Shown here piece after piece: positions 5,261-57,505 of a stretch of 64,000 bases of DNA. How positions within the stretch are numbered: position 1 is the first letter of the stretch; each line of letters opens with the position of its first letter. This DNA is from Bolinopsis microptera (Eukaryota; Ctenophora; Tentaculata; Lobata; Bolinopsidae): positions 17,716,475-17,780,474 of the forward strand of contig NC_087077.1 of assembly GCF_026151205.1 (NCBI RefSeq), written 5' to 3'. The translations under genes and the position numbers were made by a program. The notes beneath the pieces were generated by a model, which had not been told where the DNA came from, made no database searches, and saw only the letters and a list, made by a program, of their open reading frames with translations.

Positions 5261-5368
5261 AATGTATGGAAAATGAACAAAAATGAAAATAGTAGTTGAG
5301 ATGGTGGAAACATTTGATACAATTTTGGAAACATGCTTTTACAGCCGTATTTATGCTTGTACTGACTT
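5261..5368. repeat. Left part of a dispersed repeat interrupted by a transposon
   Basis: This stretch matches the unit at 7,561-7,690 (GTTGAGATGGTGGAAAC, then ACATGCTTTT, then ATTATGCCTGG-like). It is cut at 5,368, and its continuation (CTTGGAATC..ATCTGGTATGG) resumes at 7,325. The uninterrupted copies further right show that the intervening DNA is an insertion. Confidence 0.7.
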
Positions 5369-7323
5369 GGACACGTTCATAAAAAGGTGGCACTAGAGAT
5401 TGATTTTTCACTGCCAAAATTGTGTGAAGCATTTTAAAATACTTGTATCTCAAGGAGTATGCTATGAAAGTTAACCAAATTTTAATGTGGTCCAAAAAGA
5501 TTCAAATGTCACATAATAAAGTCATTCATCTCTTTATATCTGTTAATTGTGCAGATATGAGCCAGAAATCACAAAATATTCATTTCTTGCACCTCTAATG
5601 ATGAATTTACATTCTGTGAGTGTGTCCTGCTTCTCAATGTGATTATTGAACCTTTTTGAGATAGCTGAGTGTTAAAAGTGCAAAGGATCACCGGTTAAAT
5701 GTGGAGTTACGATGCAATTATCACATACAGGGTTAATTCTGACTAAGTATTTTAGAATGATGAATGTGATATGAATATCAACGGAATGATTGTAACAATG
5801 AACTCTATCAATCACAATTATATCATGCTAACTAATATTTAGAGAATTTAGATGGTTAAAAGTGCCATAATGAGTCAAAAATCACATAAATGAGCATGTA
5901 TTGAAATGATGCTGTATCAGGGGAATGTACACTGTCCATTTGAACACTGTCCATTAGTACTCCGATGAAAAAGCGATGAATGTCGATTTGCCGTGATTCT
6001 AGCTTTGTGTGTTATTGTGTGATTTCAATGCACGGCAATGAAGGGACTCAGGTACCACGATCTGGCAGACAAACATGTCTGAACAGACATAGCGAGTCAG
6101 ATCTGGTTCAGGAAATTTTATCGTTAAAGAGATATTCATATTTCATATGAATCAATACTCAGGTTTCTAATTTTGGACTCGCCCGGGGTTTGATTATGAT
6201 ACTTTGAGGAATGACATTTGATTTATAAGTTGATTTCAAATCCCCTATGGGTACCAGAAATACTGGTTTCACAACAACAACATCACTTTTTGGCTCTATA
6301 TCAGGTTGGTATTCATAGTAAATCTGCAGTAATTTGTTGTGACACTGCACTTGTTTATGGTCATGGAGAAGTTCGTTATTAGAGTAATAGTGGAATCAAT
6401 AATCACAAAACACTGATTTTAAACTGATTAAACTAGGCAAGTACTTTTACTACTCAGGCCATGATAATTTTGTCTCCATACTGTGACAAATGAATCAATC
6501 AGTTACGTATAATACTTAATTGAATTTTTGAAATGTGATTATCGATTCATTACCTTTCTTTTCAAAATGTCATTACAACTTGAACATTACATATGATTCA
6601 ATTGTCATACTTTAAAGAAAATTACATAGTTGGTAGCCAGATTTGTGTGATTTTTGAATCATTTAACCACCCAGATCAAAAATTATCGCTCAAAGGCCTT
6701 CAATATGGTATAAGCTTAGACATGGATTCAAAAATCACATAATAAGAACCATAGAATGGATATATGTTGTCATATTGTGCACTTAATTTAAGGCTTACTA
6801 TAGTGAGACTTAATAGCGCACCAATAACGAAAATGTGATTTTGAATCATATTAACTGGTTTTAATACTATTTAATACTATTTTGTACTCTAAAAAATGAT
6901 AGAAAGCCAATAAAAACGTAAGATGATTCAATAATCACTGCTCAAAATAGGCTCATTTCCAATGTTTAAGTTGTGATTTTTGAATCATTTTGGCACCAAT
7001 AACAATTTCAGATAAGACATTTTATTCCTTACATGCATTATAGTCACCATATCAATTTTGGCGTCTTTGTGAATAGTACTTTTCAGATTATCTAGTGTTG
7101 ATTCATCTTGCATTTCTAATTGTGTGATTTTTGAATCATTGGCACACAAATAACGATAACTCCTGTGATATAAGCACTACAGACTCCGTGATTTCAGGAT
7201 CATGAAATTTAATCGAATTTCTAAAGGTATAGATAGATATATCAACCAACAAAGAGCAATGACCATTTTAAAAACTCATTAAAAAAAATCAATCTCTAGT
7301 GCCACCTTTTTTTGAACGTGTCC
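5369..7323. mobile_element. DNA transposon with GGACACGTTCA ends and 4-bp target duplication (copy 1)
   Basis: The element starts GGACACGTTCATAAAAAGG and ends with the near-perfect reverse complement, giving terminal inverted repeats of about 40 bp. It is flanked by a perfect ACTT duplication (5,365-5,368 and 7,324-7,327) and splits a dispersed repeat whose intact form is visible at about 7,640 and 8,100. The 1,955-bp body has no open frame longer than 63 codons, so it appears non-autonomous. The body is peppered with a motif close to TGTGATTTTTGAATCAT in both orientations. The 4-bp duplication excludes hAT and Tc1/mariner; groups known for 4-bp duplications (Sola, some Academ, Chapaev, Ginger) remain possible. 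The superfamily is not determined. Confidence 0.85.
5490..7200. repeat. Dispersed TGTGATTTTTGAATCAT motif array
   Basis: Recognisable instances, by approximate start and orientation: 5,499(-), 5,868(-), 6,012(+), 6,396(-), 6,530(+), 6,650(+), 6,724(-), 6,833(+), 6,924(-), 6,969(+), 7,124(+). The reverse form predominates on the left and the forward form on the right. This would fit repeated subterminal transposase-binding sites, but that role is inferred. Confidence 0.6.
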
Positions 7324-8150
7324 ACTTGGAATCTATCTGGTATGGTAGAAGGACACATGTACTAACATTTCCAGCCACTTAGAAGTGCAAAATACTCCCC
7401 TGGTTCATGGAATGAATGAAATGAACACAAAATGAACATTTTCCTAGAATCCCCTGAATTGGGCTAAAACCAATTGGAATCGGTCGGTATTGATACCAGG
7501 AGTGTCCCTGAGAAGTTTGGTGTGCCTAGCATGTTCAGAAAGGGCTCTGGGGCAATGTTTCTATTTTGGTTTCAGAGTAGTTGAGATGGTGGAAACAATT
7601 GACACAAATTTAGAAACATGCTTTTTAGCGGTAATTATGCCTGGACTGGCATGGAATCGATATGGTATGGTAGAGGGGCATATTGTTTACTAACATGTTC
7701 AGCAACTCAGAAGTTTTTTTCTTTGAAATGTAATACTCCACCGAAGGGATAGGGTGCGTCAAGAATCATCCAGTTTCACATCGAAAGCACTATTTTCACA
7801 CATCAAATTGTGACATTTTTTGTTCAACTTTAAAAAAACCTTTTTAGTGCAAAATGATCCCCTGGTTCATGAAATGAACAAAAATGAACTTTACCCTAAA
7901 ATCGCCTAAACTGAGTTGAAGGCGATCAGAATCGATTGGTATCGATACCAGGAGTGTCCTTGAAAAGTTTGGTGGCCCTAGCATCCTCAGAAAAGGCTTT
8001 GTGGGCAATGTTCCATTTTGGTTTCAGAGAAGTTGGGATTCTGGAACAGAATTGAGACAAATTTGGAACAGGCTTTTTGGGCAGTAATTATGCCTTGGCT
8101 GACTTAAAATCGATCTGGTATGGTGGAGGGGTATATTAACTACATTTTTG
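7324..8150. repeat. Two diverged copies of a ~460-bp dispersed repeat
   Basis: A unit with CCTGGTTCATG, GATACCAGGAGTGTCC, CCTAGCAT and TTTTGGTTTCAGAG is seen at about 7,400-7,700 and again at about 7,858-8,150. It shares phrases with the units at 4,024-4,700, so the whole 2.4-8.15 kb stretch is one diverged array into which other elements have inserted. Confidence 0.6.
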
Positions 8151-10384
8151 GGTGTTTTCAAATTAAAGATTTCAAAGCCAGATTTTCGGCTTAAGTTGGC
8201 TGGGACATGCCCAAATTGTGTATGCTTTGATCGTGATCGGGTTTTCAAAAATAAACGATTTACCTTTCGCATATGATGGACTTTTTCCCGAAGAAGGTGG
8301 GTATTTTATCCTTGTAGTTTTCCAGAGAAGGACGTAGTCTTTTCCACATCTCTGTCATCAGAGAAGTCCTTTCGATTAAACGGTCCCTGTTTGGCACTCC
8401 TGAGATAATTGACTGTCTTATACACAATGGTTTTACCGTTTACAACATTTGCAGTAATATTTATTACCGAATTTAATTAGAATTTAACCCATACATTTTT
8501 AACACATGAACTGCTGTATCAGTAACCATCAAAATAGAAACAAACCTATGAATTTGATGTTTATCTTGTTAAGTGGGAGGTCAACCTCTTCTTGACACAA
8601 AATACCCAGTCGTCTCCTGAGATCTCCGACATGACAGAGGAAGCTACTGTCGAGTTCGATATTACAGCTAAGATAGTCAAACTGAGTGGGATCAATTTTA
8701 AGCATTACAAATCAGCAGTTATCAAGCAAATGTGATGAAAGAGCCATTATTGAAATGTAAGGCAGATCTAGAGCTAGGAATGTGTTTAGGGGCATCAAAG
8801 AATAAGTATCTGTGTACTGTTCTTTACCATACCATTTAAACGATTTAATACATGGAAGTATCACAATAATATACTTTTTCAACAACATAAACACATTTAA
8901 AAAAAGGCTCGAATGGGTTATTGATATTTCCATATAATGCAGGATTGAAATAATCTGTTTAGGAGTAATACGTTCAAATTCGATCCTGATCTACAAAAGT
9001 GTAACATGATAGCAAAATCCGCTCTGCTTTTCTATACTAGAACAAGTTTTAGTAGTCTCCAGCACATCACAGCTTAAAGGCAGTAACACTAAATCGATTA
9101 CATTAAATAATCTCTCAAGATCATTTAGTAATATCTGTATTTCAATGTGCAACGAAACAGCTTCTATACTACTTTACTACTTCTATACTACTTTACTATC
9201 AACTAGATATACGGTTTGAGCATTGAAGCTCTATGCTGTGAGCAGCAACGAAAAGAGATGGGATTGCAATATATCGACTCACTTGTGAAAATAATGATTA
9301 AATCTCCTAATTACGATTTCTAACTGCGCGGCGTAGTGCGTACTTTGAAATCCAAATAAAAATTATTTTTTGATCAAAATATTGGAAAACAAAATTACAA
9401 CATGATTCAAATCTTGTGTAAAAAAATGTTATAAACAATATGCTGTTAAAAACTTTCGTGAAAAATTTTAAAAAGCATGATTTCCACCCGATTATGTGAA
9501 GTTATCATTTTTATGACTTTTACAGGTTATAATTTTTGTCAAGAGCTTAGCCATTTGTCAAAATTTAGGTCATGGTATCATGTTATGTGACTATACAATG
9601 AGATTATAATCCGTTGATGTATAATATCTTGGAGTTTATCAGGGGATGAAATTATTTGTAGGTTTCTAAACTACCAAAACGCGCGCTGGGTTGGACTCGT
9701 TGTATAATAATAATGTATAACTATCAATACATGATACACGATAACGTAAAACTATATAAATCGATAACATATAAGATCAAATAAACCATATGGTACCAAG
9801 TTACATTAATTGATGAAATCTTTCCATGTTTTAGAATGAAAATCCATACACAAATTTCCTAGCTTTAAGTATGACACACATTATTACATGATAACGAATT
9901 GATTTAACGCGCATATGTATGCAAAATATACATGCAAAATATATTGTAATTGTATAAGAATCGACCTTGTTTTTTAAAGATTAGTCATTTAAAGTATCGA
10001 TGAGAAAATCCCTGTACAAATAGCTTCTACTTATAATCCGATAATTTATGTTGTATGATGCAATAAAAATACTCATACCGCGCGCAGCTTGAACTACGAC
10101 ATACGCAAGCGTTCAGTTGCAAATTATAAGGTCTACCGAAGTTTGTAGGGCGCGAAAAATTTTATGTTGACGTGCTCGCGCATTCTGAGTAGTCAGCTCG
10201 CGTTGGGTAATTGATTATGGGTATAAAATGAAATATTGTTTTATTTAAAATTTTGTTTTATTTTGTACACTGCCACGAAACAGCTGTTGCTGAATTTGAA
10301 TAGTTAACCTCTAAAATTGAATGGATGGGGGACAGGGGGAATAGAAGGTAAATCGGACTTTTTGAACCAAAACTATAATCTTCA
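8151..10384. other. AT-rich region, nothing recognised
   Basis: No exon, repeat end or RNA gene could be supported. Minus-strand frames of 73-82 codons at 8,024-8,933 have no recognisable features. A short duplication (CTTCTATACTACTTTACTA) occurs at about 9,160-9,200. Confidence 0.4.
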
Positions 10385-10510
10385 ATTCAGCAAACAATAA
10401 CGTAAGCATACTTTGTATCACGTTGTGACCCCATTGTCATTTCACTAAGTTTAGCGTTTTTACGATACAAGGGGAGCCGCGCACTCGTGCGCGGTGGGTC
10501 ATACAACCAA
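10385..10510 (-). repeat. Hairpin-rich repeat (copy A)
   Basis: Contains the GC hairpin GCCGCGCACTCGTGCGCGG next to GGGTCATACAACC. Its reverse complement is closely matched at 48,735-48,860, including the flanking CAAGGGGAG/CTCCCCCTG and the GGTCA..ACGTGATAC phrases. This copy is therefore on the opposite strand to the one at 48,688. It looks like a terminus of a repeated element with strong secondary structure. Confidence 0.6.
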
Positions 10511-11404
10511 AATTTGACTCGGGGGGTTAAGTTATGGGGGGGGGGGGGAGGGGGTAAAAATATAGACTGTTATAAATATGGTTCTTTGGCCCGAGAAGGA
10601 CCAAATTAGACCCCCCATGATATAATATTAACGACTAAGGTATGTTGTGAGAAACTATGCGGAGAAATCATGAGTAGATCTGAGATCAGAATATCAACAA
10701 TTCTTTTTGTCAATTTCAGCAGTGGGGTCCCCTCTTCGACCGGCCTTCATCTAGTTTGTGTGTTTGTCGCCTGTCTCGAGATATGATACCTGTGGCTATC
10801 GTGGACTCTATTATCCGTTTAGTATGGGACACATTGTGGCCACAGTAGATGCATTTTTTGTTTCATTGAGTAAACACAAATCATTATGTGCCGTTTAGCA
10901 GTAAAGTGCGATTCACTGGAAACACTCATAGGCCAATCGGTGAAAAGGGGTTCGAAAAAGTCAATATTGGCACTCGAGTCCTTGATCTTGGCGATAGTAC
11001 ACTAGGTCTTTTGAACTGCAATCTTTCAGCCAGTGCTGGTTTATGATTTATATATTAATTTGCTTGTCTTCAGCGTCTCTACTAGAAAATTATAAGTTTA
11101 TAACATATTATATAACCTACTATCTGAAACAAATATTGTACGGGTATCACCCGTTAACATATTTGTTTTTAATTTCCTTTCTGCATGTGATCAAAATTAC
11201 CCATTTAAAATATTTTCTAAAAGTTTTATTTTTCACTCAACAATTGGCAACGAAGCAAGCATGATTATACGTGCGGTGCGTCGAATAGACGATATCCTTT
11301 ACTAGGGAGTATAGTAGGCACGCCAATCCCTGTGTGTGGCGCTCTTTTCAAGCTTCTTGTACAGTGGCAGAGCAATTAGTGATAGATTAGCAAACTTTGC
11401 TCTA
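10511..11404. other. No gene seen; contains a poly-G tract
   Basis: A G-run near 10,538-10,556 follows the hairpin repeat. The rest is AT-rich and unassigned. A 73-codon plus-strand frame at 11,043-11,264 is rich in Ile, Leu and Tyr codons and has no supporting features. Confidence 0.35.
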
Positions 11405-11412
11405 ACCTCGCG

Positions 11413-11701
11413 CAGTGGCGTAACGAAAGGCCCTGCTGACCCCGCTGTGCAGGGGGGTGCCGTCTTAGGGGCGCGCCAAATCGTCGTTTGAATGTGGGAC
11501 AATTTCGAAAACTTAACTAAAGTACTAGCAAAACTGCGCGTTTTGCTCTAGATACACACTTTTTTAGAGATTTTACCGGCGTATTCTTTAAAATCACCTA
11601 ATTTGTTCAATTTTAGGGAGGGGCACCAAAAGGGGAGGGGGCGCCAACAGGGGGGCGCTTTTTTCGGCAGGGGGGCGCCAACAGGCAACGTTACGCCACT
11701 G
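11413..11701. mobile_element. hAT-like MITE with perfect 8-bp target duplication
   Basis: The 289-bp element begins CAGTGGCGTAACG and ends with its exact reverse complement. It is flanked by a perfect 8-bp direct duplication, ACCTCGCG, at 11,405-11,412 and 11,702-11,709. Inside there are G-rich blocks (GGGGGGCGCC) and no coding capacity. The 8-bp duplication and CAGTGGCG ends are typical of hAT-derived MITEs. The perfect duplication and intact ends suggest a fairly recent insertion. Confidence 0.9.
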
Positions 11702-11709
11702 ACCTCGCG

Positions 11710-13933
11710 CTTGCAGTATAAGTAGCCGTCCGTGTTGTTACCTACGTTGCTATTTACATAACCATGAGTCTTCGGCCTTTGCGTACTACGGCGGGCGCCC
11801 TCTAGTGAGTTATTATTAAATCTAAAATAGCTAATAATTTAATTAATTATTAACATGAGGCCCCTTAACGTGGGCAATAACATACGCTTTATTCCAGTGA
11901 GTAACCATAGTATTCTTGAATTGGGCTATTATATACTTTTTAATCCGCTGCTATTGCTGTATACGGCTGCAACCCAATAGGTTAAAAAGCATTATTCTAT
12001 GAGCAGCCCAGGGCCAGTGGTGCATTGCACTACATAACAAAACATATTGTATTCATGTTTTTAATCAGTAAATGTGTTTATCAACACAGAAGCCTAAGAT
12101 ACTCAGGTAATAAATCCATTAACGGGTGATTCTTTTAAAATATTTGTTCCAAATATTAGACATTTGACAAGACCGACTCTGCAGGCGTCTTGGTAAGTCA
12201 TAAACCTACAATAAATCCATTACCCAATAATTATTCAGTAATTACCTAGTCTTCACGGAATAAAGGCAAGTGAAACGCAATTAATGGTTAAAGTTTTAAG
12301 TAAAACATTATGACATTACATCATCACAAATGTTTACAAAATATCATGATCGCACTATATGAAAAAAAGTATAATAAATATTATCCCCACTTACATTAAT
12401 CATTTATCAAATAAAATATTATTAAAAAATTATCAAATACATTGTTATAATATATTAAAACCTATTCAAACTTCTTAATCATGTCAGTGGAATAAAGATT
12501 TATAAACCGCTTCTTTGCCACACAAGGATGAAACCAAGGATAATCATTATGTTTTTCTTTATTACTGACATAACGGGCTCCCTCAATTCTACGATAACAT
12601 TTCCATGACGTTTTTCTACACTAGAACCTTCGGCTGAGCTGCAAAAACGACACCACTCTTGCATTTAAATACTGTATCATCTCAAATCAGCTCAATTGAT
12701 CTCTAAAGCTCTAATGTCCTCAAATACTGTCAATTGTTCTCAAATACTGTCAAATACTTTCAATTGAATTTAAAGTCAAATTCGACCAAATCTTTTGGTA
12801 ACTTTTGGTAACTGTTTCAAAGTGCTATCAATAGTATCATCACAATCACATCATTAGTATAGCATGGCAGTCTCTATACCAAATCTTGCACACACGAAAT
12901 TTCAAATCAGATTCTGCAAGAGTTAATGATTACTGTATAGAAGTAACTAAGCATAAATGATACCATTTATGTGCCTGAAGTAGTTTCTAAATAAGTCATC
13001 GTTAGCCCCAAGTGTTTTCATTCCTACCAATCAGTATTGCCTACTAGTACTATGACATATAATTTTTCTAAAGATATAGAGAAACTGACCCTGTATCACT
13101 GAAATAAGCCCCTCACCATAGTATAAATACTCACATTTGAATAAATTATACTGTATAATCATCATGGAAAATTCTTTGATGTTGGTTAAAAGCAGAAGAG
13201 AGCAGTAAGGTGTGCATGAAGAATGTATAAATGATGGAAAGTGCAAACTAAATTGCAGTCTAGGAGGTAATGGAATGAAGTTACTGAGTGAGAAAGTGAA
13301 ATCATGGTACAGTGTCACCTTGTGAAGGTAGTGACATTGCAAGAGATTGTTCTGTAGACACTAATGCTGTCGGCATGACTAGACATAAGCCCCGGCACAA
13401 ACTCCAAAAGCGTGGTAGGGATTCTCACCGACAACATACATCACTAAGTGATGCAGTAGTCTATCCAAACAGCTACACTGTGAGGATACTACTCCTGAAA
13501 ATAAAGTATGAGATGATTCTGTGAGAGAGCTAGAGAGTACAGATGTATCAATGTCATAATATTATTATTTTCATTAAAAAGCTATCTAACTGTGTCCTAT
13601 TTGAATTGCTACCTCAAAAAATCTCAAAAGTGCTCAGCTACTACTGAGCACTTTTGAAGAGTGAAATATAAGAATTTATAAATATACAATATAATGTTAA
13701 TTCATATTTATGAACTTCTGACTAATCATAAGACCACTTTTGAGTGATTGAACTTTGTTTTTTTTTAAATCACCTGCAGTTTGTATCTTAATCAAGGAAT
13801 TTAATTCTCCCTTTGAATCAATCAAGCTAGATGATTTGTTGTAAATACTGAGATCAAACTATCAATTTACAGGCTATCGTCAAACAGGTTGCAAGGCGTC
13901 ATCTTCAGTGACATAAGCCTCAAATTATTTGTT
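11710..13933. other. Region without a supported gene; one dispersed-repeat copy
   Basis: At 12,119-12,215 there is a diverged copy of the ACGGGTGAT..AAAATATTTGTTCC..AAACCTAC repeat seen also at 44,698 and 49,376. Around 12,700-12,780 the phrase CTCAAATACTGTCAA recurs. A minus-strand 103-codon frame (13,342-13,031) and an overlapping plus-strand 70-codon frame have no recognisable domain. No splice-bounded exon set was found. Confidence 0.4.
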
Positions 13934-13937
13934 ATAT

Positions 13938-16118
13938 GGACACGTTCATTTGAGTTTGAGGATATTGGTAAATATAAGTTACCCTATTAAATGGCACAGT
14001 GTAGTTGAATTTGTCACACTATGAAATTACATAAACCCTTGATGGTTAGGATAATCGTATCATCCTCTAGGCTAACTTTGTCACATAACGATATCTTAAT
14101 CAGGTGATAAGATATCGCTTAAATACGGCCGGCACGGAAATGGTTACATTGTCACACTATAAACATGTGACGGAGTAAATATGGACCCCTTGCTGCCGTT
14201 TTTGACCAAATTTTTGAGTGTCCAGTTGATTGGATGGGTACATATGACCATTACCTACATATTTGACGACTTTTTTCGTTAGATGGTGCACTCATGTTTA
14301 CTCTGTCACACATTAAAGAAAATATGTGATGAATGTTTAGGGCACCCTGATAAGCAATGCTGAGTAGTGTAGGTTTATTTGATGGCCTGAAAGTGCTGGG
14401 AATTGTTATTATATCATATATTCGTAAGGAATTAAAACACAGAAGGCACAACCAAGTTTACTTTGTCACGTAATCTTGATGATATCTGAACATGTGTGAA
14501 ATTGAACAAATAATGATATACCAGCTTAAACCCCTTATATTACGTACTATGGATCAAACAACACTGCTAGTACCATGCACCTGCAGTCACATGAATCATT
14601 ATCAGGTGGTAATATGTTAACAGTGTCACAATTAAACTACCACAACATGGTCAAAAATAGGATAATTTCGTCACAAAAAAATTATTATAACTCTGTTAGC
14701 TCCTTGCTGGCAAAATAACTAGTTTATCGAAAAATTTTTGATGATTAAGTTTCATAGTATTCTAATAGAGGTATAGTTCTTCAAAATAGGGGCAAGACAT
14801 GTTTACTTTGTCACATCAGTTATTATAAGAGTTAGGTATTCGTCATCAGATTAAAAGATATTTTTCGTAGTTTGGATCGATTAATATACCTGTAATAAAG
14901 CACCCTATGCCAATTTTAACGTGCACTATCTTGATATTGTTGGGGCAGGGAAAGTTAATTTTGTCACATTTTCAGTGTCATTGACAAATTAATCTAAAAT
15001 TGTTAAAATTGAGCTCTGATGTTCTGGACAATATTCTTCCAATCGTTTCTGAAAGAATTTTGAATTCTAATAGAGGTATAGAATATAGATCTTCAAAATA
15101 GGGGCAAGACATGTTTACTTTGTCACATCAGTTATTATAAGAGTTAGGTAATCGTCATCACATTAACATATTATATTTTGTAGTTTGGATTGATTTATAT
15201 AGGCAATAAAGCATTCTAGTATGCCAATTTTAACACACTATCTTGATATTGTTGGGGCAGGGAAAGTTAATTTTGTCACATTTTTAGTGACTTTGACAAA
15301 TTTAACCTAAAATTGTTAAACTTAAGAATGTTGAATTCTAATAGAGGTATAGAATATAGATCTTCAAAATAGGGGCAAGACATGTTCACTTTGTCACATC
15401 AGTTATTATAAGAGTTATTATAAGAGACTATTTCATTCTATAATCATTGTTCTTAGCCTATTTACGATTTCGTATAATTTTTTGTGACAATGTAAACATC
15501 AACTGATCTTAACTTGCATCAACTACATTGTCAACATATAAAGTTTTCCCGCCTTTCAAACCAAAATCAAATATAAATAATTCGCCCAAAATTTAAAATT
15601 TCATATATTGTGACAGAATTAACCTCATTTCCCAATAACCAAGTGCCTGTATTAGCTAACTATTCAAAACGATATATTTTAGGGCTATGATTGGTAGAGC
15701 AACCATCAAATAATGAGTTGAAAGGGTTTTTAGGACACCTCACATTAGAATAGAGGTATGGTATCATGAGTGTGACAAAGTTACCCAAATATTGCCTTGT
15801 AACCGTTCGATCCGTGCCCATTAACCAATGTTGTATCATAATTGTAAGATTGACCTAATTTACTATATTTCAGACCAAGGAATGATAATTAGACATCTGC
15901 AGTTAACTAAGTCACACAAAATGTGACATTTGAACCATTATAGTGCCTAACAACAATAGATTTTCTTTCTGAGCGGTGCATATGGGAGTATGGGTTACGT
16001 GGCTAATGTTCAGAACTTCTGAACATGCTAGGTTAATAGATGTCAAAATTAAGCCACTATCGTCGAAAACGCTATTATTTTTGTTTACCAATATCCTCAA
16101 ACTCAAATGAACGTGTCC
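13938..16118. mobile_element. DNA transposon with GGACACGTTCA ends and 4-bp target duplication (copy 2)
   Basis: The element opens GGACACGTTCATTTGAGTTT and closes with its reverse complement; the inverted repeats run about 36 bp, through GGATATTGGTAAA. It is flanked by ATAT duplications (13,934-13,937 and 16,119-16,122). The outer 11 bp are identical to those of the element at 5,369, but the inner inverted repeat and the body differ. No frame longer than about 66 codons occurs in its 2,181 bp, so it is non-autonomous. The body is an array of the phrase ACTTTGTCACA, with a local ~310-bp direct duplication (about 14,755-15,000 against 15,066-15,310). Confidence 0.87.
14012..15930. repeat. Oriented TTTGTCACA motif array with orientation switch
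   Basis: The core GT(T/C)(T/A)A(C/A)TTTGTCACA appears in forward orientation near 14,019, 14,089, 14,150, 14,310, 14,466, 14,627, 14,670, 14,808, 14,967, 15,119, 15,278 and 15,396. It then appears almost only in reverse (TGTGACAAAGT) near 15,485, 15,612, 15,772 and 15,925. In the middle the spacing is regular, about 152-161 bp. Repeated subterminal protein-binding sites are the likeliest meaning, by inference. Confidence 0.75.
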
Positions 16119-16562
16119 ATATAGTAGTGTTGAAAGTATTAAAACATTGTGTTGAAAGTATTAAAACATTAGTGTATCTTAATTAATCACATTTATGCTT
16201 CCTGCATAGGATCACGTGACCCACTGACAGGGTACCTGACACAATCAAGCAGCCAATCTGCACAATAAGCTTTCTGAGATTGATCTTTGCTGTCATGAGT
16301 TGGAGATCAGCTAGCTGAGTAAACCTGACTACTAATTTAATCAGTAGCTGTTAATATTTAGTAGTAAATAAATAGACTAACGTCAGGATTTCCAAAGCAA
16401 AGATTAATATTGGTAAATTGGTTTCTATTATATAACATTTGAATGTATAGATGAAACTAAGATCAGAGGAAAACCCACATTCCCATGTGTTTTTCCTCAG
16501 ATAATAGTTCATTTGCTACACAACTTGTTAAAATTGCACAGTGGTCTGGTGTGCCAAATGAC
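16119..16562. other. Short gap between transposon and CCP gene
   Basis: A short direct repeat (GTGTTGAAAGTATTAAAACATT) occurs at about 16,126-16,165. The remainder would be the 3' untranslated and intergenic sequence of the minus-strand CCP gene. No clear polyadenylation signal was singled out. Confidence 0.4.
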
Positions 16563-53115: not shown

Positions 53116-54008
53116 TTATTGGAATACAATTCTAAACAGTTCATTGTCAAATTCTCCTGACGACAATACCTCCCGTAGCAGTGAAGTTGGAGCTCCAGCT
53201 TTAGTCAAACAATCTGCAAGCTGTTTCTTTGTTGAAATCCAACGAACTGTCATTTCACTATTGTTCACTCGCTGTCTCAGGCAAGCTATTGGTATCCTCA
53301 ATCCCTTGTCATCAACATTTTTCGAGGTTTGGATAGCATCATGTAGAGACTTGCAATCAGTCATTACAATTACATCAAGTTTTCCAGATAACATGATCTC
53401 ACTCAGCTGAGCTTGGATCAACTCACATGTTTCCACTGCTTCGATCATTGCCCAAATCTCCGCTGCTAAAGTACTTTTACATACTCTCCGGATTTTTCTA
53501 CTCTGCCATGTAATGGGGCAAGATTTTCCTGTAAGCGAAACAAGGAAAATTATGAAGCCTCCCTGAGAGCTACCATCCTTCAAGTTTCCATACGATGCAT
53601 CACAGAAAACCACTAAGACTGACTCAGGCAACAGTAGTTTCTTAAACCTGAGTGTTAGAGGATTCTTTTCTAAGAACTTTACTGTTTTGTTTACCATTTT
53701 CAAATCTGCGATGGTCCCTTCAGTCACAGAATTACTAGCAAAACATGTAGCATAAGCTACATCTGGCCGTGTCTGTGTTGATACCCACAACAACTGTCCG
53801 CACACAGTTCTCAGTTGTTGCTTTTCTTTCTCGTTGATTGGGAGCGTATTTCGATTCACTCGGGTGGGGTCGATCTCTATTCTTGAAATCTGGTCTGCAT
53901 ACCCCAGTTGTGATACCAGAATTCCAGATTGTGTTTGCTTTACATCAAGACCAGTATAAGCAAATTCAACTTCGACCTCCGTACTTAGACGAAACTTCTT
54001 CTTCAGTT
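53116..54008 (-). pseudogene. copia pol, C-terminal part: end of reverse transcriptase and RNase H
   Basis: The open frame continues the polymerase beyond the break at 54,009. It includes the connection segment (QLLWVSTQTRPDVAYATCF) and RNase H (FCDASYGN, STLAAEIWAM, DCKSLHDA) with the expected acidic residues, and ends at 53,116. Length and motif order are normal for copia elements. The frame upstream of the first Met (53,859) is open back to the break. Confidence 0.88.
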
Positions 54009-54011
54009 CCC

Positions 54012-54982
54012 AATAACTTCCTTTTCAAACTTCTTGCTTCCACTGAACATCAGATCATCAACATGCACAGCAATGATACCCTCGAGTTTTCCTTCATCAT
54101 ACCAGAACATGAATGACTCATCATATGACGATACCACAACATTTAACTTCACTAGAGTATCACGAAGCTCAACATACCACATTCTAGGTCCGTCTACTAA
54201 CCCGTAAATACATTTGTTCAGTTTCCAGATTTTCCTCGTTTCAGCTTCCTTCGGAGGAATAATGAAGACATCTCTTGAAATCTTCTTGCCTTGCAAGAAG
54301 GCAGCCTGAACATCGATGTGTTGTAACTTCCAACTTTCTGTTGCAACTATTGTAAGGAGCAGTCTTATAGAGTCCCTGTTACATGTTGGGGAGTCCTTTC
54401 GTATGTTGCTACTATTTTCTTGATAACCAAGTGCCACTAAACGAGCTTTAACAGAACCTTCTGCTTTCTTTGTAATTACCCAACGAACACCAACATTGGA
54501 CTGTTCGTTTGCATCAACTTCCACGTAAACCTTGTTTACTTTGAACTTCTCAAGCTCTGCTTGCTTGGCATCTACAACTGCTTGGTCATACATACTCACA
54601 CTGGACAGCAACACCTCTTCTTCTGTTTCTGGTGACAGGTCATCTCTCCAATTCACAGCAAGCTCATACCAATCCACACATTGGATGCTCTCCTCACCAT
54701 CAAGTTGAATATTTACACAGTTTTTGTAACTGCCAGTTGATTTTCCCGCACGGCTATGGATATAAGCTTTATGCCAGATCTCACCATCCTCCTCTGGATA
54801 CTTTGGAAGAAACTCCACGTGACTTCTTGCTTTAGGAAGTCCTGATTTGTGCTGAGGTCTGATTGTTGCTGTTGTCTCACTTTGAGGCAGTGTTTCTGTT
54901 TCCGGTACAGAAACTGCTGTTTCCATAGAGCAAGATGGTTGATCCTCTAGGAAATTTCTCTGCGTCTCTAACATGGGGATTT
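54012..54982 (-). pseudogene. copia pol, reverse transcriptase part
   Basis: A 323-codon frame with the copia reverse transcriptase blocks: RWVITKKAEGSVKARLVA, then LQHIDVQAAFLQG, then the catalytic VHVDDLMFSG. Frame breaks at both ends separate it from the integrase tether and from the RNase H part. All catalytic residues of the polymerase core appear present. Confidence 0.9.
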
Positions 54983-55107
54983 TGGTGAACTTGATACAAT
55001 ACTCGGGTTAGGTTGCCCAACAACTGACTCTGAGGTAATGGGATATCCTGTTGTTGTATCCCTGGTTAGATGACATGCACTGCACTTATAATACTGATTT
55101 CCATGCT

Positions 55108-57483
55108 TTAAAATATATAAATGAGTAATGTCTCTCCCCAGTATAACACCTGGCCCACTCCATTTTGCAGATCTCCTTTTCTCTTGTACATCACCTTTTC
55201 ACCGTTGCTATAATACTCATCATTGCTTGTCCGAACTTGGCTTTGCAGAGCTCTACGTATCTTGTTGCTACTTTCACACTTTGCAAATGCTTGCCTTGCA
55301 CTGTGCATTGCATTAACATTATCAGCCACGGTTTTACTCACCGTTGTTTCTTCTAAAGCTGGCAGTCTATCATCGATGACATTCGGAAGTGTAGGGTTAC
55401 GGCCCATTGTCAACTGATTTGCAGAAAACCCACCAAACATCTGCATGGAGTTTTTCGCACTTAGTGCCCAACACAATGCAACTTCCCAGTTGCATTTTGA
55501 ATCTTCCTTCGTTTTTACCATCATCTCTGTCAGCATCTTATGATGACGTTCTACAATCCCATTGCTCCAAGGGCTCTCGGCAGCTGAATTTTGCACATCC
55601 ACATTGAATCTTTGACACATCTCAGTAAACTCCTCATTGGCGAACTCTCCACCATTATCAGCCATGAATTTCTTTGGATTTCCAAAGATGGATATCCATC
55701 CAGAGCAAATTCCTTGGATGATTGTCTCTTTCTTCTTATTGTAGATTATTCTAGCTGCTGAATATCTTGTCACCGAATCAATCATATGCAAGATATACAC
55801 ATTAGGAGTGCCAGGAACATTCTTAAGGTCCATTGCAACACATTCGTTGAACACCTTTCCTCTTGGGAGACCCACCACTGGTCTTGACTTAGGTTTCTTG
55901 TACATCAGACATATTTTACAACTGCTGGATACCTCATCAATTGCTTTCATGTATTCTGGTCTCTTAAATCCTGCAGTTTTCAGCAATGTTTTCAGTTTAT
56001 CACTAGGAGGGTGTGAGAATTGTTTGTGGATTTTTTCCACTTTCCTCCTAATCTCCTTTTCGTCAGTACCAAACAAACCTTCTTCGCTGATTGTCATCAC
56101 CCGATGTGGGGTCTTTCGATCTGGCGGCCCAATGGTCATGCGTCTTTTATTACAAAGAGGAACGCAATAGTGCTTTGATTTAGTTTCAAACAAATCAACA
56201 CAATCTCCACTGAATCTCATTGTATCATTTGTGAAATCCAACACAGCACCAGCTCTCTTTAACGATGCTTTACTGAGAAGCAACGGCAGTTCTTTCTCAA
56301 CAATGTTTGCTTCTATCCGAACATCTGTCTTTCCTATTCGCCCAGGGATGATAGTCTTTTCTGTGGAAATGACTTCGAGTCCATCCCCAAATCTAAAAGG
56401 CGTCGAGCAAGGTTCACTAACCATCATTTTCAGTTGTTTTTCTTCCAGAGTTTCTCTGTAGTGATTCACCCAGTTCCTACCAACAACTGTCTTTGTACAT
56501 CCGGAATCAATAACTGCACATGCTAATGACTCATATACAAGAGAACCAAGGTTCGTATCACTCATCAGGCACTCTTCAGGAATCTCAACAACATCTTCAG
56601 ATTCAGACACCACCATGAATGTTAAGAATGCACCCTCTGCTTCCATGGCCGTAACATTCTCAGCACCATCTTGTGCGAAATACTGTGCATTATCTGTTGA
56701 ACTTGAAGAAGCTCTGTTCTTGCTTGTGCACCATCTTGCAATATGGTTTTTATCGCCACAAGCATAGCATCCAGTATACGCACTCTTTTGTCGATTATAC
56801 GGATGATGATGATTCCCACGTCCTCTTGACATCCTTCTGTAGTTTCCTCGTCCACCTCTTGGGGTTGAGTTGTATGTATAGTTACATTCCTCATGTTCCA
56901 CCTTCACTGATATTGACGCAGGCGGTGTGGAAAGGTTTGATTGGACGGAGAAGATTTTCCCGATCGTTTCACACATATCTTTATGAGTAAGATCCTTAAC
57001 AGTTGCCAAAGCGAGATCATATTTTTCTGACGGAAGGTTAGCGCTGTTAAGGAATCTGTAGGCCAGGACTGCTTCAGGAAGAGTGATTTTGTGTCTCCTG
57101 AGATCCGCTAGCAACTTTTCAAACTCAGATATGTAACTCTGTAAAGACAACCCTTCTGGTCTCACATATTTTTCAAACTTACCGTAAACTCGGTAACAGG
57201 TTTGAGCTGAGTCCTCTAAATAGATTTTGTCAAGATGACTTAAAATCTTCGCTATTGCATCCTCTGCAATTAGGACATCTTTCCCCAATGATCGTACTGT
57301 ATCCTTTATCTTCCCTTGTTTCAATTCTAAGAGCAACGCAGTTCCTTGTCTCTTTTTCTCTAAACCCGTGAACTCTTGCCACAGCTGCAGGTCTAACTTC
57401 CAATTGCAGTAGTCCTGATCCTCACTGTATGCCGGTGGGGCTTTGTAATTACTAGTTACTCTAACTGTCTCTGGGGGTGCCAT
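55108..57483 (-). pseudogene. copia gag, protease and integrase
   Basis: The likely start is the ATG at 57,483, just after the primer-binding site; the frame is open a little further upstream. In order: gag capsid region, zinc knuckle (CYACGDKNHIARWC, ~residues 240-252), aspartic protease (AVIDSGCTKTVVG, ~325-337), and integrase with an HHCC domain (HKQFSH..CKICLMY) and the D,D,E core (MADNGGEF; SPWSNGIVERHH). A frame break at 55,163-55,166 ends it early; the integrase tether continues in another frame to about 54,984. Confidence 0.92.
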
Positions 57484-57492
57484 TGCGTCCTT

Positions 57493-57503
57493 CTCTGCTA
57501 CCA
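57493..57503 (-). other. Primer-binding site of the copia element
   Basis: TGGTAGCAGAG on the minus strand, two bases inside the 5' LTR, matches the complement of the 3' end of metazoan initiator methionine tRNA over 11 bases. This is the usual primer for Ty1/copia elements. Confidence 0.85.
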
Positions 57504-57505
57504 CT

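Follow-up and report, generated by a model that had tools for sequence, protein, structure and literature searches.

The window examined here, a stretch of 64,000 nucleotides from Bolinopsis microptera (G000:C6:17716475-17780474 within a genome assembly of 264.65 Mb), carries two non-coding elements, W1 and W2, each bounded by inverted copies of the same 11-bp end, GGACACGTTCA (Table 1). A first-pass annotation had placed two elements at 5,369-7,323 and 13,938-16,118 with identical outer 11 bp at all four ends, and the window indeed holds four exact sites there, at 5369 (+), 7313-7323 (-), 13938 (+) and 16108-16118 (-). With up to two mismatches allowed, the motif is found 16 times against a chance mean of 12, i.e. 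at the level of chance, and the case therefore rests on exact ends. The perfect 4-bp target-site duplications (TSDs) that had been reported, ACTT for W1 and ATAT for W2, are present. The inverted ends of W1 extend over 40 bp with a single mismatch at position 12, those of W2 over 35 bp, and the two pairs diverge past base 11. No open reading frame (ORF) of at least 150 amino acids (aa) lies within W1 or W2, in agreement with the lack of long frames noted before. When W1 is removed together with one ACTT and its flanks are joined, the resulting sequence can be aligned across the junction with two intact paralogues elsewhere in the window, as expected from the proposed insertion into a repeat. 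In the part of PMC4455052 that sets out the Repbase rule, elements belong to one superfamily if their TSDs have the same length and positions 1-11 align with at most one mismatch; W1 and W2 agree in both and would therefore be filed in one superfamily.

Across the genome there are 1,266 exact copies of the 11-mer, against 94 of its reversed control. Among 100 listed places, all on contig C1, 36 convergent pairs were chosen by eye (35 fetched whole, one by its ends), and the addition of W1, W2 and five pairs obtained later gave a scored set of 42 copies, 40 of which are non-redundant. Exact cores were a condition for the selection of scored copies and TSDs were not. Inverted pairs with 4-bp duplications, for which the first-pass annotation had suggested a search, are indeed frequent in this set: 37 of the 40 non-redundant exact-end pairs have a perfect TSD, the remaining copies being L005, L018 and L022. 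The fifth flanking base matches in two scored copies only, which sets the length of the duplication at 4 bp. The target is WTAW-like and most often ATAT (20 of the 37), followed by TTAT (6), TTAA, ATAA and GTAT (two each) and five types seen once. In a control of mismatched pairs 508 of 1,722 match, a high value because ATAT is common; since this frequency inflates the control, the argument is carried by the non-ATAT cases, where a left flank other than ATAT is matched in 17 of 19 pairs. A further pair, 12.3 kb long and seen by its ends (L036/L037), has ATAT on both sides and stands outside the 37/40 count. Inverted ends, a TSD of fixed length and the empty site of W1 are together the marks of a cut-and-paste DNA transposon with terminal inverted repeats (TIRs), and elements like W1 and W2 are a real and large Ds-like group.

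BLAST comparison of ten representatives at E 1e-10 divided the bodies into four groups: A (W2-like), B, C (W1-like) and D (L004, L065, L066). Group B is ~75% identical to group A, while A, C and D share no BLAST similarity at this threshold. Divergence from the majority consensus of the group is 1.3-3.2% in A (18 copies), 4.0-6.4% in B (6 copies), 0.2-3.5% in C and 0.2-0.7% in D, the last two being rough figures from three copies each. Because divergence within groups is low, movement was probably fairly recent and the group was probably recently active. Sorted by the bases that follow the core, the ends number (control counts in brackets) 377 (0) for TTGAAG, 119 (68) for A/C/G, 78 (0) for TAAAAA, 78 (9) for TC/TG, 18 (4) for TTHH and 11 (11) for TAB; the remaining 585 were obtained by subtraction and are taken as mostly type A, not directly counted. 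No further paired end type was seen among the post-core patterns listed. Two group B copies on C1 (L027, L033) have an extra internal GGACACGTTCATG end; in L027 it is there because the right end was duplicated in tandem, with copies 630-634 bp apart, and the layout of L033 is alike. Group C ends in the same orientation were also seen in rows, 3.4-24 kb apart, at G000:C11:1632122-1691006 (L063) and G000:C10:10707585-10714488 (L064). In the one unit inspected of each row, a truncated group C element is accompanied by a gene-like frame, which in L064 has 195 aa and in L063 has 353 aa and was judged receptor-like by eye.

The bodies had been described as unrelated, which holds for BLAST similarity and fails for an internal motif and its spacing, which the bodies have in common. 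A k-mer count pointed to TGTGA/TCACA, which is enriched in all four groups when compared with 200 dinucleotide shuffles per sequence: TGTGA was observed 22 times in W1 (8.6 expected), 22 in W2 (6.8), 17 in L065 (8.1) and 27 in L034 (8.1), and its count was above every shuffle in all nine element copies tested. By comparison, 3-8 copies (3.7-6.3 expected) occur in each of four 2-kb stretches taken from the window as controls, none of which exceeds all its shuffles. Alignment of the sites places TGTGA/TCACA within a longer motif of ~25 bp, whose centre, read by eye, is GTTTACTTTG in A, GTAAACATCG in B, GATTCAAAAA in C and GCACAATAA in D, alike inside groups and unlike between them. A motif matrix built from one group ranks the sites of the other groups above 218 genomic TCACA sites with an area under the curve (AUC) of 0.62-0.90 over 10 ordered pairs (p from 0.046 to 2e-8), and with an AUC of 0.61-0.86 against shuffled flanks of their own.

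The hidden spacing of these internal sites is the new part of the finding. Counted inward from the two ends, TCACA stands, among other positions, at 215/369/531 and 193/344/506 bp in A (L031), at 203/355/516 and 197/348/487 bp in C (L008) and at 206/359/519 and 345/496 bp in D (L065). A spacing of 151-154 bp is present in all six arms of these groups, and random placement reached a spacing common to six arms in 0 of 3,000 trials at widths of 4, 6 and 8 bp and in 9 of 3,000 at 12 bp. The succession of 150-155 and then 158-163 bp is found in four of the six arms, against two at most in 5,000 random trials. The test drew on a single representative of each group and was restricted to sites at a distance of 150-600 bp from an end, with B excluded as a relative of A; it is post hoc, the pattern having been noticed before testing, and it treats the arms as independent although some have weak mutual similarity. 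A period scan over eight arms gave 158 bp as the best value (p ~0.002), and site positions agree between arms at a tolerance of 12-16 bp (p 0.002-0.005). It is doubtful, in our estimate, that the array is simply the relic of an ancient tandem repeat of ~155 bp whose motif is bound by nothing. Local tandem repeats do occur in the bodies (L027, and L034 with regular spacings of 111 and 152 bp), and the weak residual similarity of arms (z 6.9 for the left and right arms of C, z 4.4 for the right arms of A and C) is of the kind such a relic would leave. Against this, motif and spacing are kept on both sides of A, C and D despite the absence of BLAST similarity, which suggests constraint.

The first-pass annotation had also proposed that one transposase moves diverse bodies by recognizing the short end plus internal motifs. 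The 11-bp/4-bp family, the non-coding bodies and the motifs are all as it proposed; its single transposase goes further than these data, since the motif centre differs between groups and several related transposases also fit. In the extreme case each body group would have a transposase of its own, with the 11-bp cleavage site inherited in common and the motif centres shaped by co-evolved binding domains. The resemblance of the centres within A, B, C and D and their difference between groups speak for this, while no such transposase was seen for any group and the spacing is common to A, C and D; we regard it as possible, if somewhat unlikely. Outside the two elements, positions 53116-57504 of the window contain three minus-strand ORFs which resemble a Copia-like retroelement by eye.

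Table 1. Features of elements W1 and W2 and of the repeat split by W1; positions are those of the window.
Feature	Position	Strand	Basis
Element W1, group C, 1,955 bp, non-coding	5369..7323	.	exact ends, TSD, BLAST grouping
W1 left target duplication ACTT	5365..5368	.	
W1 right target duplication ACTT	7324..7327	.	
W1 left inverted end, 11-bp core + group C end	5369..5408	+	
W1 right inverted end	7284..7323	-	
W1 phased internal site TCACA, 201 bp from left end	5569..5573	+	
W1 phased internal site TCACA, 353 bp from left end	5721..5725	+	
W1 phased internal site TCACA, 514 bp from left end	5882..5886	+	
W1 phased internal site, 348 bp from right end	6972..6976	-	
W1 phased internal site, 197 bp from right end	7123..7127	-	
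Uninterrupted paralogue of repeat split by W1 (empty-site evidence)	~7579..7710	+	
Second uninterrupted paralogue of repeat split by W1	~8031..8147	+	
Element W2, group A, 2,181 bp, non-coding	13938..16118	.	exact ends, TSD, BLAST grouping
W2 left target duplication ATAT	13934..13937	.	
W2 right target duplication ATAT	16119..16122	.	
W2 left inverted end, 11-bp core + group A end	13938..13972	+	
W2 right inverted end	16084..16118	-	
W2 phased internal site TCACA, 215 bp from left end	14152..14156	+	
W2 phased internal site TCACA, 369 bp from left end	14306..14310	+	
W2 phased internal site, 506 bp from right end	15609..15613	-	
W2 phased internal site, 344 bp from right end	15771..15775	-	
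W2 phased internal site, 193 bp from right end	15922..15926	-	

Copies beyond the window are likewise poor in coding sequence. In 11 of the 15 longer loci, those carrying no insert, there is no frame of at least 100 aa; L062, L065 and L066 have none of at least 90 aa, and L028 (3.8 kb) is without a long frame. Nine copies longer than 4 kb were inspected as potential autonomous elements. Seven of them (L001, L019, L035, L040, L060, L061 and L090, where L040 is 10 kb inside the 12.3-kb pair and L090 the middle of another pair) were rejected as their frames are like those of retroelements without long terminal repeats, judged by eye with no family search. L089, the 1,051-bp middle of a pair, consists only of further A/B array with no long frame. 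L020 was rejected because it contains a nested element (L020:2138-7927, on C1), flanked by TTAA, with GGGGGCA ends, long inverted repeats and a DnaQ-like exonuclease exon whose PF16473 match is below the cut-off of that profile. The nested element resembles the KolobokD lineage of PMC9587614.

A helper was also sought elsewhere in the genome. The PF20700 profile (Kolobok-type transposase) has 18 matches, and none of the six loci fetched (L068-L073) has GGACACGTTCA ends. Two of them, L068 and L069 (on C7 and C8), are Kol0 elements with TTAA and AGGTGCACACC ends; they are 99% identical, have open THAP-transposase frames and a P2RX7_C-like frame, and are possibly young. KolobokP combines its transposase with a His-Me finger nuclease; PF05551, which we take to be the model for the I-PpoI type of nuclease, has no match here, and control genomes were equally silent. 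PF25273 (DUF7869) matched three long frames, and protein searches with one of these and then with one locus thus obtained gave 18 and 145 match rows, in many cases fragments, from several lineages. The protein alignment retains W, D, Q, N, K, G, H and D columns. We call these proteins Sola2-like on account of what we take to be the D...D...GHxxxxxD pattern of that group and of 4-bp TSDs at some loci. Fifteen such loci (L074-L088) were fetched with ~2.5-4 kb around the gene. Four of them have CTGCCG ends with a 4-bp TSD: L081 (CGTG), L082 (TATG), L087 (AACT) and L088 (ATTT). The ends of these four are CTGCCGTTTTCT, and many of the 145 genome-wide match rows for their protein are pieces of one copy. 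In two other Sola2-like kinds (L074-L076 and L077/L078) the right end is immediately followed by ATAT. Near both ends of L087 and L088 a motif recurs at intervals of 160-214 bp, with seven of eight copies pointing inward. The C, D and C+D motif models find up to 10 matches in single Sola2-like loci, e.g. L074. The structure predicted for a Sola2-like core, with a mean predicted local distance difference test score (pLDDT) of 48.5, was of insufficient quality for comparison.

The reading we prefer, at a probability of roughly one half, is that these elements are non-autonomous cut-and-paste transposons of at least four body groups, mobilized in trans by a DDE/D-type transposase that is encoded elsewhere and reads the 11-bp end together with internal sites. 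Such an enzyme would cut at the 11-bp end and would bind the ~25-bp TCACA-containing motif with its group-specific centre. With the first internal sites at ~200, 350 and 510 bp from each end, the functional end would span several hundred bp, as compared with the visible inverted repeat of 35-40 bp. That the enzyme is of the Sola2 kind is the weaker part of the proposal, and several Sola2-like lineages share the genome. A Sola2-like enzyme is, on circumstantial grounds, the likeliest source of transposase, and Sola (Sola2-like), the one looked into among the superfamilies that the first-pass annotation had named, is in the same circumstantial sense the best fit.

Several observations weigh against this reading. 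The transposase-coding copy that the first-pass annotation had advised looking for did not turn up: no transposase is encoded in the nine copies longer than 4 kb or in any GGACACGTTCA pair inspected among the ends listed, which are part of the 1,266. Not one of the 15 Sola2-like loci has ends within one mismatch of the GGACACGTTCA core, and the element motif occurs in none of them at element-like density; because of this the case for a Sola2-like origin is circumstantial. The combined motif model gives 0-7 matches in these loci (2.7-4.4 expected) as opposed to 14-23 in four elements (1.0-1.4 expected). CTGCCG ends with a TSD are present in only four of the nine loci of the L080 kind (L080-L088), and two of the four, L081 and L087, sit in longer inverted repeats which give other end pairs. 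The left ends of L074-L078 were not found, hence the ATAT beside their right ends may be part of the element, and the repeated motif of L087 and L088 is absent from L082 and scarce in L081. As to the elements themselves, TCACA sites in four representatives point inward in 15/23, 21/27, 14/22 and 11/17 cases, which is significant for L034 only, and in none when orientation is scored with the motif models. Site positions do not agree between arms at a tolerance of 8 bp (p 0.21). Finally, the terminal GG...CC is compatible with Kolobok as well.

The ends may instead belong to another superfamily, such as Academ, Chapaev or Ginger, or to one not yet described. In favour of this, no encoded transposase was found in the copies inspected, and of 16 papers in which the 11-mer or its complement stands, the 10 listed all have titles that concern other subjects. 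A long type A end is unmatched in viral contigs, and a type C/D end is unmatched in contigs of bacterial and archaeal genomes. On the other hand, 4-bp TSDs, ATAT beside the ends and repeated internal motifs are already found in Sola2-like elements of the same genome. We consider another superfamily somewhat unlikely. Ginger elements have an integrase-like transposase and TGT ends, and Chapaev has CACTA-type termini; the ends here are GGACAC.

More speculatively, and with the odds in our view clearly against it, the functional ends, several hundred bp long, could serve as a ruler, in which the 11-bp cleavage site is followed by binding sites one nucleosome-length apart (~152 bp, then mostly ~161 bp), a layout kept while the other sequence was replaced, on which one transposase or lineage would assemble at the scale of chromatin. 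If true, this would account for non-coding elements of 2 kb that have no visible homology. Should the spacing be functional, then most of what defines these elements escapes similarity searches and programs that look for TIRs, and groups now classified as unrelated would be one system mobilized in trans. With this spacing it can also be tested directly if sites placed at nucleosome-scale intervals are read by a eukaryotic transposase. Even if the array is only a relic, a well-supported and large Ds-like group is left.

Three known systems are comparable. PMC9587614 describes KolobokP as having RR...YY ends, TIRs of 11-18 bp, TSDs of 3-4 or 4-5 bp and, in the Pacific oyster, non-autonomous families of 1.7-3.3 kb; it is defined by long terminal direct repeats with TIRs of their own and has no strong target preference. 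Our elements are comparable in their short TSDs, TIRs and element lengths, and their GG...CC fits 5'-RR...YY-3' termini, a feature fixed by the exact core used for choosing copies. Membership in the Kolobok superfamily, possibly near KolobokP, would also agree with TTAA in two of the 37 TSDs and with the Kolobok-type transposases in the genome. In contrast to KolobokP, the + core occurs once only, at the left end, in the 42 scored copies and there are no long terminal direct repeats, the extra end of L027 being a tandem duplication and L033 having the same layout. The target is ATAT-rich, neither unspecific as in KolobokP nor TTAA as in canonical Kolobok, which accounts for only those two TSDs, and the Kol0 elements of this genome have other ends. 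A Kolobok origin is quite unlikely in our judgement.

Sola elements are characterized, in the part of PMC10741241 that treats them, by 4-bp TSDs and highly variable termini with TIRs from 11 bp, and the relevant passage of PMC3627910 gives some Sola2 as having TIRs of 12-13 bp with the AT-rich TSD AWWT, or of 21 bp with ATAT, AAAT or ATTT. The 4-bp AT-rich TSDs found here (ATAT 20, TTAT 6, other types 11 of 37) are similar, and the difference is that none of the Sola2-like genes fetched is bounded by GGACACGTTCA. In general organization the closest parallel is Ac/Ds of maize (hAT), in the excerpt of PMC3260210 a heterogeneous non-autonomous group with 11-bp TIRs, a repeated subterminal motif bound by transposase and varied bodies. 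Common 11-bp ends, a repeated internal motif and otherwise varied non-autonomous bodies are shared with the ctenophore elements. The end sequence differs, and the 4-bp TSD departs from the 8 bp that characterize hAT. While Ac hexamers, according to the same excerpt, lie within the terminal 200 bp, the array described here spans ~2 kb at a spacing of ~150 bp.

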